From a virus, in IMG/VR virus record IMGVR_UViG_3300048835_001002, positions 1-55,593 of that record: a stretch of DNA of 55,593 nt; one strand, written 5' to 3'. Position numbers and translations under genes: made by a program. Of this stretch, positions 2,387-14,355 are shown one piece after another. Position 1 is the stretch's first letter; each line of letters opens with the position of its first letter. The notes under the pieces are model-generated. The model saw only the letters and a program-made list of their open reading frames with translations, was not told the DNA's origin and searched no databases.

Positions 2387-4229
2387 TTACCTAAGCCCTC
2401 GCCTTGGCACCACGTTCACGGACTATCACTTCGGAATCCGGCCCAACCCCAACATAACGATTGCCCAGTACGCAGAGAAAAACCTCTATCTCGTCTCCGG
2501 TAAAAACCCCTTCCCAGGCCTCGTTGAATTCTCCCGCACACCCTATCTCTTTGAGATCATGAATGCCCTGATGCCCGACAACGGCATCGAGCGCGTCGTG
2601 CTCATGAAGGGCTGGCAGACTGGTGGAACGCTGACGATTCTCGCCTGGATGCTCTGGGTCATGGGCGCCGCCCCAGCTCCTATGATGATCGTTCAGCCGG
2701 TTTCCGAGCTGCGCGACAAATTCTCAAAGCAGCGCATCAATCCGATCGTTGCCAACTGCCGGGACCTTCGGAATAAGGTGGAAGAGCATCAGAAAAATAT
2801 CGCCGGCAGCAAACGCGAGAAAGACACGCTGATATCAAAGCACTTTCCCGGCGGTCACATCACTCTCTCGACCAGCACATCGGAGTCATCGCTCAGATCA
2901 GAGAGCATCCAGTATCTGGCCTTCGATGAAGTCTCGGCCTACGAAGAGGATTGCGAGGGACACGGCGACCCCTGCGGCATCGCGCTGGGCCGCACCTCGG
3001 CCTATGACGGCCGCAAGAAAGTCTTCTACAACTCAACGCCGACGATCAAGGAACACTGCCGCATCGACCGCGAATACCTCGCCACCGATCGGCGAAAATA
3101 TTTCGTTCCATGTCTCAGCTGCGGCGAAATGCAAATCCTGGTCTGGGCGCAGATCGATCGCTCGACGGACAACCCTGCCTATCTTTGCCTCCGCTGCGGC
3201 TATCGTCATTACGAGCAGGACAAAGCGGAAATGCTGCGGCGCGGCGAGTGGCGAGCAACTGCTGCTGCGGTCGACGGTGCCCGCGGCTACCACCTGCCCG
3301 CCCTCTATGCGCCGCCAGGCATGTGGTCCTGGCGAAACTGCCTTGAGCAGTTCCGGAAGGGTGTCGACAACCAGGTCGAGATGAAAGTCTTTGTGAACAA
3401 CTGCCTTGGAGAGCCCTACGAGGACGACACGATCATCACCCGCGATCCGGAATCTGTTATGAGCCTCTGTGAGGACTATTGGCCCGCAGAACGCCTGCCT
3501 CCTGGAATCGGAATTGTTACGGCCGGCGTTGATACCCACCCTTCCCACGTCGATATCGTCACACGCGGCTGGGGTCGCGGCGGCGAAAGCTGGGTGCTCG
3601 ATCGCTGGATCGAATACGGCGACTCGAACGATGGTGAGCTCTGGGACCGGGTTTATGCCCGGCTGCAAACGACCTACCTTCACAATAATGGCTCTGATGT
3701 CCTGCGGATCGCGGCTTCATGTGTCGATACTGGCGGACATAATACTGGCGCAGTATACGAATTCTGCAGCCATCTATTGCGGCAATTCATTGTTCCCATC
3801 AAAGGGGCCAAAGGGGTGGCCGCGCCGATCGTCGACAGGCCAACCGAAAAATCCGAGGCCGGAGTTTACCTCTTCTCGGTCGGCAAGCTCGCCACACACG
3901 GTCGTCTCTATTCGTCCATCGACAAATCCATCGCCAAATTCAGGGAATTTCAGGAGCGAAAAAAAACAGATCAGACCGCCACGTACCGATCGGCTGACAT
4001 CATTCATTTCCACAAAAGCCTGGGCGAAGCCTTCTTCAAAGAACTGACCGCCCCAAAGAGCATCTGGAAAAAATCAGATGGCAAATACCAGCTCACATAC
4101 GAAACCACAGCCGGCGTAGCCGATCATGCCCACGACTGCCTTCGCTACGCCGACGCAGCACGCGAAATCTTCAGTGTGAATATCGATCAGCGTTGCGACG
4201 AACTCGAAGGCACACTGCCCGCCGCATAA
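2370..4229 (+). CDS. terL: Terminase large subunit, GpA family
   Basis: The 619-residue protein has the lambda gpA layout. A deviant Walker A region (VVLMKGWQTGGT) lies near residue 75, a Walker B-like LAFDEVSAY near 190, and two CxxC pairs (PCLSC and CLRCGYRH) near 250-285. A C-terminal nuclease part follows, with GVDTHPSHVDIV near 385 and a final HDCLRYADAA segment. I chose the ATG at 2370 because AGGAGG lies at 2361-2366; a GTG at 2331 in frame has no ribosome site. It would cut concatemeric DNA and pump it into proheads. The gene is intact and overlaps terS. The lambda-type family agrees with the following gpW, portal, protease and gpD/gpE genes. Confidence 0.95.
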   Translation: MKRRPDYLSPRLGTTFTDYHFGIRPNPNITIAQYAEKNLYLVSGKNPFPGLVEFSRTPYLFEIMNALMPDNGIERVVLMKGWQTGGTLTILAWMLWVMGAAPAPMMIVQPVSELRDKFSKQRINPIVANCRDLRNKVEEHQKNIAGSKREKDTLISKHFPGGHITLSTSTSESSLRSESIQYLAFDEVSAYEEDCEGHGDPCGIALGRTSAYDGRKKVFYNSTPTIKEHCRIDREYLATDRRKYFVPCLSCGEMQILVWAQIDRSTDNPAYLCLRCGYRHYEQDKAEMLRRGEWRATAAAVDGARGYHLPALYAPPGMWSWRNCLEQFRKGVDNQVEMKVFVNNCLGEPYEDDTIITRDPESVMSLCEDYWPAERLPPGIGIVTAGVDTHPSHVDIVTRGWGRGGESWVLDRWIEYGDSNDGELWDRVYARLQTTYLHNNGSDVLRIAASCVDTGGHNTGAVYEFCSHLLRQFIVPIKGAKGVAAPIVDRPTEKSEAGVYLFSVGKLATHGRLYSSIDKSIAKFREFQERKKTDQTATYRSADIIHFHKSLGEAFFKELTAPKSIWKKSDGKYQLTYETTAGVADHAHDCLRYADAAREIFSVNIDQRCDELEGTLPAA

Positions 4230-4250
4230 CCCACACCCACCGGAGCCCCA

Positions 4251-4457
4251 TTGACCCCCGAAGAGGAACTTACGGCCGTGCAAAAGGCCATCGCCACCAT
4301 TCTGGGTGGCGGTCAGGAAGTAGAGATTGAAGTCAATCAGAACCGTCGCCGCATCACCCGCGCAAGCCTCAAGCTTCTCTATGCCCGCGAAAAAGAGCTG
4401 AAAGCCCTGATTCGTCGCCAAAGCGGAGGAGGCATCATCCATGCAATACCTCGTTAA
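4251..4457 (+). CDS. Head-to-tail joining protein, gpW-like
   Basis: This 68-residue protein matches lambda gpW in size and pattern. It has an N-terminal helix with EEELTAVQKAI, a short beta hairpin (VEIEVNQNRRRI) and a second helix (LKLLYAREKELKALI). It starts with TTG at 4251 and its end overlaps the portal ATG at 4441 by 17 bases. gpW caps the portal after DNA packaging and receives the tail connector. The position between TerL and portal is the same as in lambda. Confidence is high from size, position and fold pattern together. Confidence 0.85.
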   Translation: MTPEEELTAVQKAIATILGGGQEVEIEVNQNRRRITRASLKLLYAREKELKALIRRQSGGGIIHAIPR

Positions 4458-5979
4458 GTCCGAAAGACCAACCATCTGGTCACGGGTGCGAAGCGTTTTC
4501 ACACCGTTTTCACAGGTTGATAACGCCTACCGTTCGACGACACGGGAGCCTGGATCCACAAGCGAGTGGAACCCGCCCTCGTCCAATGCCGACGAATCGC
4601 TCCTGCCCGTCCTCGCCACCTTGCGTGATCAATCCCGCGATCTTGACCGTAATGAGAGCATTGCCCGCGGCGCTCTTGAGAACTACATCACGAATGTTGT
4701 CGGCGATGGACTACGGCCGCAATCCCGGATTGATCATGAATTGATTGGGATCACCGAGGAAAAGGCTCGGGAGTTTGAACGTCGAGCGGAAAAGATCTTC
4801 TCGCTCCACATGAGCAGGAACACTGCTGACTGGCACGGTATGTCAAGCTTTGCCACCCTTCAGGCCCAGGCACTAAGATCCAGCATGCTCGACGGTGATT
4901 GCCTCGCCGTTCGGCGCTTTAGAAATCGTCCTGGCGCCATCCTTGGAACTGCCGTCCAGATCATCGAAGCATCCCGAATCCGTACACCGATGGATATCAA
5001 GTCTGACATCGACGTCCGCGAAGGGGTTGAACTCGACAGGACGGGCATGCCGATCGCCTACCACGTTGGCAAAACCGGCGCCGATCGTTTCCTCGGCAGT
5101 GAGACGGTGCGCGTTCCACGCTTTGACTCCCAAGGCACAGCAGCCGCCCTTCACCTCATCCTCCAGCGCCTGCCACGTCAAAGTCGTGGCGAGCCGTTCC
5201 TCGCTCCTGTGATCGACAAATTCAAACAGATTTCAAGGTACAGCGAAGCCGAGATCGATGCGGCCGTCATCAACGCATTCTTCGCGGCATCACTGACAAG
5301 CGAAGTGGGCGGCATCTTTGGCGATCGCTCGAAGGCCCACCTTGCAAACCCTCAGACGAAACCGCCCGAGCGCAAGTACCACAAGTTTGGCCCAGGCACG
5401 ATCCTTGAGCTTTTACCCGGCGAAAAGCTGGAAGGAACGACTCCGGGCCGACCGAACATGAACTTCGACGCTTTTGTGCAGGCCGTCATCAAGCAGATCG
5501 GAATCGGTTTATCCATTCCCTATGAAGTGCTTACGCAGCATTTTTCTTCGAGCTACTCCGCGGCCCGCGCGGCGATCCTTGAGGCCTGGAAGGTCTTCAA
5601 AGTGCGCCGGGCATGGCTTGTGAGCGAATTCTGCCAGCCCGTCTGGGAGTGGGTGATAGCTGATGCCATAGAAAGCGGGCTGCTTGATGCTCCTGGCTTT
5701 GATGACCCGCTGAAGCGTCACGCCTGGCTCTCCGCGCAATGGTGTGGCACCGAGATGGAAGCCATCGATCCCCTGAAGGAAGCCAAGGCCAGCGAAACCG
5801 AAATCGCCATTGGTGTGAAATCGCGCCGCTTCATTGTGGAAAGCCAGGGCCGCGACTTTGACAAACAGATCCAGGAGTATGAGGAGGAGAATAAAATCTT
5901 CTCTGATCCGGCAGCACAAAGCCAGAACATGGGCAACACGAATTCCGGGCAGGGCCGTCCGCAATCTGCGGACAGCTGA
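4441..5979 (+). CDS. Portal protein, lambda GpB family
   Basis: The 512-residue product has hallmarks of the GpB portal family. An N-terminal region has RSTTREPGSTSEWNPP, then DRNESIARGALENYITNVVGDGLRP (positions about 80-110), a central GTGTILELLPGEK-type segment, and PYEVLTQHFSSSYSAARAAILEAWK near residue 360. It forms the dodecameric ring through which DNA enters the head. It starts at ATG 4441 inside the end of the gpW gene. The last codons lie in a small hairpin (5957-5973). The following protease reading frame is open back to the portal stop, which suggests close coupling. Confidence 0.95.
   Translation: MQYLVKSERPTIWSRVRSVFTPFSQVDNAYRSTTREPGSTSEWNPPSSNADESLLPVLATLRDQSRDLDRNESIARGALENYITNVVGDGLRPQSRIDHELIGITEEKAREFERRAEKIFSLHMSRNTADWHGMSSFATLQAQALRSSMLDGDCLAVRRFRNRPGAILGTAVQIIEASRIRTPMDIKSDIDVREGVELDRTGMPIAYHVGKTGADRFLGSETVRVPRFDSQGTAAALHLILQRLPRQSRGEPFLAPVIDKFKQISRYSEAEIDAAVINAFFAASLTSEVGGIFGDRSKAHLANPQTKPPERKYHKFGPGTILELLPGEKLEGTTPGRPNMNFDAFVQAVIKQIGIGLSIPYEVLTQHFSSSYSAARAAILEAWKVFKVRRAWLVSEFCQPVWEWVIADAIESGLLDAPGFDDPLKRHAWLSAQWCGTEMEAIDPLKEAKASETEIAIGVKSRRFIVESQGRDFDKQIQEYEEENKIFSDPAAQSQNMGNTNSGQGRPQSADS
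5957..5973. repeat. Hairpin GTCCGCA-ATC-TGCGGAC at the portal gene end
   Basis: Seven-base perfect arms with a 3-base loop lie four bases before the portal stop codon. They carry the same arms as the hairpin upstream of terS at 1668-1686. It could cause ribosome pausing and affect initiation of the protease frame. Recurrence of the same arms is the only evidence of function. Confidence 0.45.
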
Positions 5980-10639: not shown

Positions 10640-11482
10640 TTGGATCTTCCGCAGATTATCGAAACACCGGACTTTCAGGCACAATTCAAAGATGCACTCA
10701 AACGCTTCACTGAATCCTATCGCAAAATCGTCCCGGACTTTGGCGAACCGACCGCCGCCGATCCCATCTATCACATCCTTGTTGAACTCACTCTCAACAA
10801 AGTTATCGGAACCGAGAAGATCAATAGCGCAGCATACGCTCAGCTGGTCAAACTCTCGAACGAGATTGACTTTATCTTCAAAGGAAAAATCCGCCCGGGC
10901 GAAAGTTACGAGGCCTACCGCGACCGCATGCGCGGGACCAAGGATCAAGCTTCCACCGCTGGCACCCCAGCCATGTATAAGGCCCTGACTTTTCTTTACG
11001 GTGAGGCATCCCTTACGGCTGCGGGAGCAACGCGAACGGCTTCCGTCATGGACGCCTACGTGCAGGCTGCAAACGGTGAACTTTTGATTTCCGTGCTCAT
11101 CAACTCGGATGCGGCTGATCTCAAAGCTGCCGTCGTGAATGCACTGACCGATGCGTTTAAAAAGGAAACCGTCAAACCCGCTCTTGATTCCGTAACATTT
11201 ATCGAAGCAAGGGCCGTTCCGTTCTCCATCAATGCCGTGATCTCACTCCAGCCCGGTTACGCCAAAAGCTATCAGACCCGCATCGAGGAGAACTTCAGAA
11301 AGTCTTTTGAAGCTCAGAAAAAGCTTGGATGGGCGCCGACGATGAGCTGGATCGTGCGTGAACTCCATCAGCCTGGTGTCCGCTCGGTCATCCTTCAATC
11401 GCCTGCCACAAACATCCCGGTTCAGGCCGATCGCTACGCGACCATCACGCGGCTGGATCTGACGGTCGAGGAAAGCGCATGA
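10640..11482 (+). CDS. Baseplate assembly protein J, P2-like
   Basis: The 280-residue product has the baseplate J pattern, including SYEAYRDRMRGTKDQASTAGTPAMY near 110 and VVNALTDAFKKETVKP in the middle. A C-terminal half has SWIVRELHQPGVRSVIL. I prefer the TTG at 10640, which has GGAG nine bases upstream and lies after the W stop; a TTG at 10604 lies within W. J forms the baseplate periphery with gpI and gpW. It is slightly shorter than P2 J (302 aa). Confidence 0.9.
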   Translation: MDLPQIIETPDFQAQFKDALKRFTESYRKIVPDFGEPTAADPIYHILVELTLNKVIGTEKINSAAYAQLVKLSNEIDFIFKGKIRPGESYEAYRDRMRGTKDQASTAGTPAMYKALTFLYGEASLTAAGATRTASVMDAYVQAANGELLISVLINSDAADLKAAVVNALTDAFKKETVKPALDSVTFIEARAVPFSINAVISLQPGYAKSYQTRIEENFRKSFEAQKKLGWAPTMSWIVRELHQPGVRSVILQSPATNIPVQADRYATITRLDLTVEESA

Positions 11483-11883
11483 TCGAGACTCATATCCGGC
11501 AATACTACCCCGACTATGATACAGCCCCGATCGTTTCGATACGACTGTCCCAGGATCCTGCAATCCGCAATGCAATTCTCTGGGAATATGGGCTTGATCC
11601 GCTGCTTCCTTTCGCCATTGACCCGGCGCGTATCAACGATGAGATCACTGACTTCATTCGCCTGCGCGGCACCATTGCTTCGATTCGCGCGGCCCTTCGC
11701 TGGGTTGGCTTTCCTGATGCCCGCTTTGTTCGCCTCACCTCTTCCACCTTTGAGGTGGACGCCGGACGCAAACCTACCGATCGGGAACTCCTGGCAATCC
11801 GTGCTGCACTCGCTGTTTCAGTACAGGCACGCGGAACTCTTAAACGCATCTTTAACAAGGACTTTGAAATCAAGTATGGCTGA
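11479..11883 (+). CDS. Tail protein I, P2-like
   Basis: The 134-residue protein matches the phage tail protein I family. It has DPAIRNAILWEYGLDPLLPF near the N-terminus and LRGTIASIRAALRWVGFPDARF in the middle, which is the conserved 'GT...I..ALR..G' element. It links baseplate J to tail fibres in P2. The start ATG overlaps the J stop (ATGA) and its end overlaps the sheath N-terminal ORF by eight bases. No H-type fibre or G-type chaperone gene follows; the next genes are the sheath and the collagen-like protein. Confidence 0.88.
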   Translation: MIETHIRQYYPDYDTAPIVSIRLSQDPAIRNAILWEYGLDPLLPFAIDPARINDEITDFIRLRGTIASIRAALRWVGFPDARFVRLTSSTFEVDAGRKPTDRELLAIRAALAVSVQARGTLKRIFNKDFEIKYG

Positions 11884-12364
11884 TGGATATGTACACGGAA
11901 TTGTAATTAAGGAGGGCTCGGGCGAGGTTCGCACCATACGATCGCCAAGTCCTTCCGTCGTCGGACTCGTAGGAACCGCAGTGGCCGCAGGCACGACTCT
12001 CAAGGCCCTTGTTCCCGAGGTCTTCTTCAAGGAAAACGCAGCTCTTGAAGCTGTCTATCCTTCAGGTTCCAGCGGACCAAAGGGCTCACTCTACCAGGCA
12101 CTCCGCGGAGTCTATGAGCAGACCGATGCAACGGTTGTGGTGGTTCGCGCTCAATCGGACTCCGACGCCGATATCATGGCGGCCATTGAAAAGCTCGAAG
12201 ACGCGGAGGCGTTGACGGGCTTTAAACCCAAGATCCTGGCTGCACCAGGATTTGGCTACGCTTTTCCCGCCGTAATTCAATCGGCCGTGCTGCCTTTGAC
12301 GATACCCATGGCAGTAGCCAGCAACAAAAAGACGAATTCCACAGTTGAGGTGATCAATGGCTGA
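11876..12364 (+). CDS. Tail sheath protein, N-terminal part (split gene)
   Basis: The 162-residue frame is the N-terminal half of a P2 FI-type contractile sheath. It opens MADGYVHGIVIKEGSGEVRT, has SPSVVGLVGTA at about 25-35, an ALRGVYEQTDATVVVVRAQ segment at about 75-95, and the conserved KPKILAAPGFGY at about 118-129. At that point normal sheath sequence breaks off and about 34 unfamiliar residues (AFPAVIQSAVLPLTIP...) lead to TGA at 12362-12364. The rest of the sheath continues in the next frame from 12357. The two pieces together match full-length FI apart from this insert of about 100 bases. Confidence 0.88.
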   Translation: MADGYVHGIVIKEGSGEVRTIRSPSPSVVGLVGTAVAAGTTLKALVPEVFFKENAALEAVYPSGSSGPKGSLYQALRGVYEQTDATVVVVRAQSDSDADIMAAIEKLEDAEALTGFKPKILAAPGFGYAFPAVIQSAVLPLTIPMAVASNKKTNSTVEVING

Positions 12365-13109
12365 TGAAGTGGCGAACCCCATCGCCGTAAAGCTTAAATC
12401 CATGGGAAAGCGCCTCGGCGCAATCGTTTGCCTTGATGGCCCGGATGATTTCGCTGAAGCGGAAAAATTCCGAAAGCTCAACGGCGATGAACGCATTTAT
12501 ATTACATCGCCACGCCTTAATGTATCCGAAGACAATAAGATCGTGAACGTCCCATCCAGCGCGACGGCCGCCGGCATCTTCGCTCTCATTGATTTCTGGC
12601 GATCGCCTTCCAATCAGGAAGTCCAGGGAGCACTCGGCACATCCTTGCCGATCTCGTTTGCTCTCGATGACCCACAGTCCATGGGTCAGCGCCTTAACGC
12701 CATACAGGTGGCGACCTTCGTTCGCCAGGATGGTCTGAGACTCTGGGGTGCTCGCGGCACGGGTGATCAAACCAACCTTGCGACCAACCAGATTCAAAAG
12801 GTGCGGATCCGCGATGCGATACGGGAAGCGATCATCGCATCTCACCGCTGGGCGGTGGCGGCCGGGATTACGAGCAACCTTTTCTCAGCGGTCGCATCAA
12901 GCGTAAATGCCTACCTCGACGAACTCACCCGCCTTGGGGCGATTGCAGGCGGCAAATGCATCCCGGATGGAGATTTCAATACTCCCGGCAATCTCAATGA
13001 TGGCAAGGCGTTCTGGACTTACGACGTCACCCCCACCCCTGTCGTTGAAACCATGACCTTCACTGAAGTTCTCACCCAAAAATATCTGGCTGGAATAGGA
13101 GCAGCCTAA
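12357..13109 (+). CDS. Tail sheath protein, C-terminal part (split gene)
   Basis: The 250-residue frame starts at an ATG (12357) overlapping the stop of the N-terminal piece by eight bases, with GAGG at 12346-12349 as ribosome site. It opens with [20 protein letters not shown], which in other sheaths follows directly on the 'KP+IL.APGF' element. Sheath C-terminal elements are intact: [27 protein letters not shown] and [16 protein letters not shown]. It is in the +1 frame relative to the first piece. Either two coupled polypeptides assemble into one sheath subunit or an unusual recoding or splicing event joins them. Confidence 0.9.
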
Positions 13110-13113
13110 GCTG

Positions 13114-14355
13114 ATGACAAACTCGATTCGTCTGATTTTTCTTTCTGTAGTTGGATTTCTGACTGTGGGCCTGTTCGCGCAGACCACCACCCCGCCCTTC
13201 TCTGACAATGAGCAACCGATTTTCTCCAACACCTACCTGATCGACAACGTGTCGAACAACTCGGTCGGCGGCGATCTCACGCTGCGCATCAATAAAAAAG
13301 CTCCTTTTGATTGCAAGACAAAGGAGGATTGCCCGGCTTCCGTGATCATCTCCAATGCAAATGGCAACGTGAACATGCCGGTCGATGTTAACGTCCGCTC
13401 ACTCTATGTCGGCAAAGCCCTGACGATCGATTCGACTGGTCGCTGGGTTGGTCCGAGCAGCGGACTGCGCGGCGATAAAGGCGACACTGGTCCACAAGGT
13501 CCCATCGGACTTCAAGGCCCAAAGGGGGATGCCGGCCCCATCGGTCCCGCAGGGCCGCAAGGCCTGAAAGGGGATACCGGAGGAACCGGTCCTGTCGGAC
13601 CACAAGGCTTCAAAGGAGACACTGGTGCAACAGGACCGGCTGGTCCTCAAGGCTCCAAAGGAGACACAGGCGCAACAGGACCACAAGGGCCGAGAGGCGA
13701 CACCGGACCCACAGGCGCAACAGGACCACAAGGCTTCAAAGGCGACACTGGTGCAACAGGACCGCAGGGAATCAAGGGTGATACCGGACCCACAGGCGCA
13801 ACAGGACCACAAGGCGCGAAGGGTGACAAGGGAGATCCTGGCGATGGTTGCTGGTATGACGATCAAGCGCAAAGGATCAACTGTGCGGGCGGCACATGGA
13901 TTCCACTTTCCTCCATCAAAGGACCTCAGGGCGATCGCGGAGCGACAGGACCGACTGGACCCACAGGCGCAACAGGACCCTCTGGACCAATCGGACCGGA
14001 GGGGGCAAGGGGACCCGCTGGACCGACTGGACCGACTGGACCACAGGGACCTGCTGGATTTAAGGTATGCCGCACTGTAACGCAGGACGTAGGCCCAAGT
14101 TCCGTGGGCGGAACCAATCCGCAAACGCTTTTTGCTACAGCAGACTGCAATACAACTACAGAACCATCCATTCTCACGGGCGGAAGCTGTTTTGCCTCTA
14201 GCGGAAGGCCATTGCTTCTAAACGTACCGACCATCGATCTTACCATCAACTCAAGCACCGGAAAGCCTTTGTTCAATCGTTGGCAGTGTCGCGGCGAAAG
14301 CACCAACAATACCTCGGGAAGACTCACCGCCACAGCCATCTGCTGCAATAACTGA
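13114..14355 (+). CDS. Secreted collagen-like repeat protein in the tail operon
   Basis: The 413-residue protein has a Sec-type signal peptide ([20 protein letters not shown], cleavage near Ala22-Gln23). A Cys-containing N-domain follows, then about 45 Gly-X-Y triplets at about 118-245. A 28-residue non-collagen break with two Cys ([14 protein letters not shown]) interrupts them, then more triplets at about 272-315 and a Cys-rich C-domain ending CCNN. Collagen stretches are common in phage fibres, but fibres do not normally carry an export signal. Lying between sheath and tube genes, it may be an exported adhesin carried as cargo, or a fibre whose hydrophobic N-terminus anchors it. Dense GAT/GAC GGT/GGA repeats make the DNA internally repetitive. 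Confidence 0.85.

Follow-up and report, generated by a model that had tools for sequence, protein, structure and literature searches.

Contractile tails have the sheath as their motor, which is made of a single chain in nearly all phages and of two chains in the type VI secretion system (T6SS). Here we describe a metagenomic virus record, IMG/VR IMGVR_UViG_3300048835_001002, analyzed over its 55,593 nt (the window), that bears on how such a two-chain split arises and is tolerated. Sequence comparisons indicate that, in the P2-like tail operon carried by the window, the sheath gene very probably underwent fission in an ancestor of these phages, giving two co-directional genes, coupled in translation, whose products would form one sheath.

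The closest described system is the P2 FI/pyocin R2-type sheath (PF04984 and PF17482, PHROG 23), with which the window shares the sequence family, the domain order, and the place in the operon before the tube gene. The window differs from it by having two overlapping genes, an extra tail on the first of them, and a collagen-like gene that separates the sheath from the tube. The T6SS proteins TssB/TssC (VipA/VipB) form a two-chain sheath subunit, which the window chains would resemble in design rather than by descent. A further group of sheaths, found in Xanthomonas phage FoX5 and in Caballeronia, Cupriavidus, and Paracoccus prophages, carries extra residues after a ..PRILxAPGF strand, as at the window break, but these are encoded by one continuous gene with a folded-looking insert, whereas the window has a stop and a new start. 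Finally, the Photorhabdus virulence cassettes and antifeeding prophage (PVC/AFP) and Campylobacter phages have, like the window, more than one sheath gene; such paralogs are taken as full-length copies, whereas in the window each gene encodes one of two complementary portions of a single subunit. Several gp18 genes have been described in Campylobacter phages (PMC3322345). We found no published split phage sheath in the open-access literature, subscription papers being outside the scope of the search. An earlier reading made from the letters of the window (the sequence-only reading) had called all its options for the broken sheath gene unusual for an essential tail protein, which holds for phages, although T6SS sheaths have two chains.

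The break in the sheath gene

The comparison with unsplit sheaths confirmed, at the sequence level, that the split is real: the first open reading frame (ORF1) corresponds to the N-terminal third of a sheath of the P2-FI/pyocin-R2 type, and the second (ORF2) to the remainder. The close relatives used below are eight IMG/VR contigs (L002-L009, of which L004 begins within ORF1), with an ORF2 nucleotide identity of 87-100% in the seven that were measured. The features, with the ratio of nonsynonymous to synonymous polymorphism (pN/pS) where available, are as follows:

11876..12364, + strand: ORF1, sheath N-terminal chain (N-arm and first part of the alpha/beta domain), 162 residues; phrog_23 tail sheath E 4e-9, alignment to unsplit sheaths, pN/pS of the body 0.05-0.10
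12357..13109, + strand: ORF2, sheath C-terminal chain (rest of Phage_sheath_1 and Phage_sheath_1C), 250 residues; PF17482 4e-11, PF04984 6e-9, phrog_23 7e-54, pyocin R2 sheath 3j9q 3e-40, pN/pS 0.03
12260..12361, + strand: ORF1 tail, 34 residues absent from unsplit sheaths (formerly read as an insert); coding and weakly constrained; in relatives its length varies by 9 nt in frame and its pN/pS is 0.25-0.75
12347..12355, + strand: Shine-Dalgarno sequence of ORF2, GAGGTGATC; GAGG core in all eight close relatives, GAGGTGAT in the divergent contig L038, duplex energy with the 16S tail -12.2 kcal/mol
12357..12364, + strand: stop/start overlap of ORF1 and ORF2, ATGGCTGA, 8 nt; an identical 8-nt overlap lies at the gpI/ORF1 junction (11876-11883)
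11479..11883, + strand: gpI-like tail gene, 5′ of ORF1 and overlapping it by ATGGCTGA; synteny in all relatives, junction comparison

The coordinates of the sequence-only reading all check, including the shift of ORF2 by one frame and the 100 nt between the GCT at 12260 and the GCT at 12360. The PHROG 23 match of ORF1 spans its first 96 residues, and its homology to unsplit sheaths stops at ..KILAAPGFGY. As had been proposed, ORF2 resumes where unsplit sheaths continue, residue 138 of the pyocin R2 sheath pairing with ORF2 residue 8 in the alignment to 3j9q. ORF2 enters the Pfam Phage_sheath_1 profile at about position 50 of 168 (31-32 in the divergent lineages L018 and L038), so the break interrupts a fold domain rather than separating two domains. 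More precisely, it falls after the strand ..KPKILAAPGF, in a loop of the conserved sheath domain. FoX5 and some of the Caballeronia, Cupriavidus, and Paracoccus prophage sheaths have about 75-85 extra residues in the same loop, which therefore tolerates additions. It is a site at which a phage sheath can probably be severed or made to carry additional sequence. As a general statement, not specific to this loop, inserted domains of sheaths sit outward-facing. We also observed that the extra residues (about 75-85) in the break loop of the L026, L066, L073, and L077 sheaths contain GSGYTAAPT-type repeats, and that the sheath of Pseudomonas phage ZRG1 (L027, 1730-3247) has a large insertion elsewhere, near residue 42.

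All eight close relatives (8/8) retain the two-ORF arrangement together with its TGA, GAGG, and ATG. In a comparison of the window with L005, L006, and L008, which yielded the pN/pS ratios listed above, the values in the ORF1 body and ORF2 were low, which indicates strong purifying selection on both halves, and both chains are therefore maintained as proteins. The ORF1 tail varies among the close relatives by a single in-frame 9-nt deletion.

Translation of ORF2

In the proposed mechanism, ORF1 would be translated through to its own stop (TGA, 12362-12364), and ORF2, in the +1 frame relative to ORF1, would be initiated at the overlapping ATG through re-initiation and/or direct binding at the strong Shine-Dalgarno sequence. 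Both chains would then polymerize as one sheath, and the ORF1 tail may be an unstructured leftover or a decoration. We infer the translational coupling of the two ORFs and, from homology and selection, the pairing of their chains and the assembly of the sheath. A two-piece sheath made by coupled translation was one of the options of the sequence-only reading and is well supported by these comparisons. The GAGG that it had noted is present at the break, with the TGA and ATG, in a Shine-Dalgarno sequence, GAGG(TGATC), that begins at 12347. The predicted duplex energy of this sequence compares with -5.7 kcal/mol (ORF1) and -6.5 kcal/mol (the following gene), and the ORF2 signal is strong in the relatives as well (-9.5 to -15.9). 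Since gpI and ORF1 are joined by an identical stop/start overlap, coupling of translation at ATGGCTGA would be commonplace here; the sequences 5′ of the two overlaps are similar as well.

A single fused sheath would instead result if ribosomes underwent programmed +1 frameshifting where ORF1 ends. Such a mechanism would fit the +1 frame of ORF2 in the window and in L018 and the 8-nt open overlap conserved in most close relatives. However, no slippery site was found in the 8 nt that are open in both frames (GTG ATC AAT GGC TGA), no slippery codon is conserved in the 8-nt overlap elsewhere, and what is retained instead is a strong Shine-Dalgarno sequence with an ATG. In addition, the overlap is variable (8 to 41 nt), and L038 has a negative one (-8 nt). 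There, ORF1 terminates at 4490-4492, and the ORF2 frame has its last stop at 4495-4497 and opens only at 4498; a simple frameshift is thus impossible. We consider frameshifting very unlikely.

It had also been proposed that ribosomes bypass the ~100 nt from one matching GCT codon to the other; bypassing of the kind known from T4 gene 60 depends on matching codons and a hop signal. A GCT pair 100 nt apart and the 7-bp stem (TGGCTAC, 12253-12259, with GTAGCCA, 12314-12320) do occur in the window and in the relatives nearest to it. Nevertheless, neither element is conserved: the GCT at 12260 is lost in L005-L007 and L009, with CCC, ACC, or GCC instead in relatives, and the stem is lost in these four and also in L008, the 9-nt deletion taking out one arm. 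The stem thus exists as described but is incidental, and we dismissed it as a functional signal, taking it for a chance pairing. Moreover, no stop follows the take-off codon, ORF1 running on for 34 codons, and the stretch to be skipped is the translated tail of ORF1, with an in-frame length change and a wholly different sequence in L018 and L038. Bypassing is therefore highly improbable.

The third option, a spliced RNA element or another form of RNA removal that restores a single frame, would account for extra bases located right at the frame break. Group I and II introns, however, are far longer than this stretch of ~100 nt, and no Rfam match was obtained in 11800-13200 at the gathering threshold. 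The pN/pS of the tail is that of a coding sequence, and its length, ends, and sequence vary freely and are lineage-specific, while the ORF2 start and Shine-Dalgarno sequence stay. The chance that RNA is removed here seems negligible.

Split, fused, and unsplit relatives

Profile scans retrieved L018 (65% identity in ORF2), L010 (66%), L038/L039 (47% over ORF1), and L019-L025 (about 53%); the protein identity of the split lineages L018 and L038/L039 to the window is about 52-65%. Scans started from L010 alone or L018 alone each recovered nothing but the query itself. A first scan of a genome collection for related sheaths gave no matches, and a second gave prophage sheaths only, all distant and unsplit.

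Two of these lineages are split like the window. In L018, a PSGGN repeat tail closes ORF1 (2657-3196), and ORF2, in the +1 frame, begins at 3204 (MADPAATLANP). In L038, which is split along with L039, ORF1 (4001-4492) ends with ..NSTNRKTA and ORF2 starts at 4501 (MADANP). Their ORF1 tails are unrelated to that of the window, and the type of start (MAD, Shine-Dalgarno) is alike. It could be argued that the split is a sequencing error, or that the element is defective and its sheath gene non-functional and in decay, as the contigs are metagenome-assembled and the completeness of the record is uncertain. The same structure is nonetheless seen in nine contigs at 87-100% identity and in two divergent lineages, with conserved start signals and a pN/pS of 0.03-0.10 in the two coding bodies, which makes error or decay extremely unlikely.

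Unsplit relatives, for which the sequence-only reading had suggested a search, do exist: L019-L025 have a single continuous sheath ORF with a short loop, and 27/27 of the distant prophage sheaths in genome contigs are continuous, some with a longer loop. None was found to encode the same 34 residues within a continuous ORF. L010, a continuous ORF of 472 residues, has a different, charged linker of ~85 residues at the break site, modeled at very low confidence (predicted local distance difference test, pLDDT, about 30). The start-signal site of the window, TGAGGTGATCA..ATGGCTGATGAA, corresponds to TGAGGTGGTCA..AAGGCTGAGGAA in L010, the ATG having become AAG. L010 and the window clade group together in sheath trees (ultrafast bootstrap 99-100), and L018 and L038 branch outside this group; support for the order of these two is weak (60), and the gpJ tree has a different topology. 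One split followed by re-fusion in L010 takes two events on the sheath tree, and independent splits take three. Because of this lower count and the relic start signal, we favor the view that L010, a single short contig, probably re-joined the two halves and kept a dead start signal as a relic. Selection has kept the two-piece arrangement in no fewer than three related lineages of virus, and a fourth seems to have undone it. The unsplit outgroups, the several split lineages, and the one apparent re-fusion form a natural series for testing the fission of a mechanical protein.

The L010 model (pLDDT 56, moderate confidence) had the pyocin R2 sheath as its best match (Foldseek 8.5e-14; Z 15.8, root-mean-square deviation 11.4, 264 residues), and a sheath subunit fold is thus predicted on this fused relative only. 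VipA/VipB were not among the listed fold matches of this model, a search that cannot exclude a resemblance. One could also imagine that ORF2 alone is the working sheath and that ORF1 is now a separate protein, such as a chaperone, a decoration, or a regulator; ORF1 has gained a tail absent from unsplit sheaths and is the less conserved half. However, ORF2 starts inside Phage_sheath_1 (positions 31-50 of 168, depending on the lineage), and both halves are in one chain in L010, so a sheath made of ORF2 alone is very unlikely.

Some observations weigh against a sheath made jointly by the two chains. The ORF1 chain folded alone gave a weak model (pLDDT 56) and no match in the PDB, although this says little with an alignment as shallow as nine sequences. 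The states of L018 and L010 are each known from one short contig. Finally, the two-piece sheath is the only one in the record, which has a single PF17482 (Phage_sheath_1C) match, but a second sheath outside this metagenomic record could conceivably exist.

Origin of the split and neighboring genes

The domain topology of T6SS VipB differs from that of phage-type sheaths (PMC10457771), and no Pfam match to T6SS sheath families was obtained for ORF1 or ORF2 (E 1e-3) or for the L018 and L038 halves (E up to 1). The window split is therefore likely independent of TssB/TssC, which it resembles in outline without being a member of that family. We can only speculate on its origin. One scenario, possible but doubtful in our view, is that an obligate two-chain sheath, independent of TssB/TssC, arose by one-step copying of the sheath’s own start cassette (gpI stop, Shine-Dalgarno sequence, ATGGCTGA) into the tolerant loop of that gene, with a later reversal by re-fusion in L010. 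Such copying would create the stop, the Shine-Dalgarno sequence, and the start at once. With a weight matrix built from the gpI/sheath junctions of five lineages, the ORF1/ORF2 junction ranked second of 55,570 positions in the window (18.7 bits; next 11.9) and second of 8,451 in L038 (19.8 bits; next 11.8), but only 47th in L018. Convergence on a good start signal is a simpler alternative that could give the same picture.

The operon order is that of P2 (J, I, sheath, tube, tape measure), apart from the collagen-like gene that intervenes before the tube. The tube, tape-measure, and terminase genes have normal family matches; among deposited phages, the terminase gives distant relatives only (33% identity). 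The intervening gene (13114-14355) encodes collagen repeats after a hydrophobic, signal-peptide-like start. A tandem pair of such genes is found in L038 (5247-6452 and 6449-7663); collagen-repeat genes also adjoin the L010 and L018 sheaths and are absent in the unsplit L019 group. This gene may mark the same clade as the sheath split. Four short families, PHROGs 11242, 12477, 13288, and 16736, match one sheath half only and may include other split or truncated sheaths. In the tail operon of a relative, Stenotrophomonas phage Smp131 (L029, 4258-4712), we noted a tail gene annotated as a joined E/E′, likely through a frameshift.
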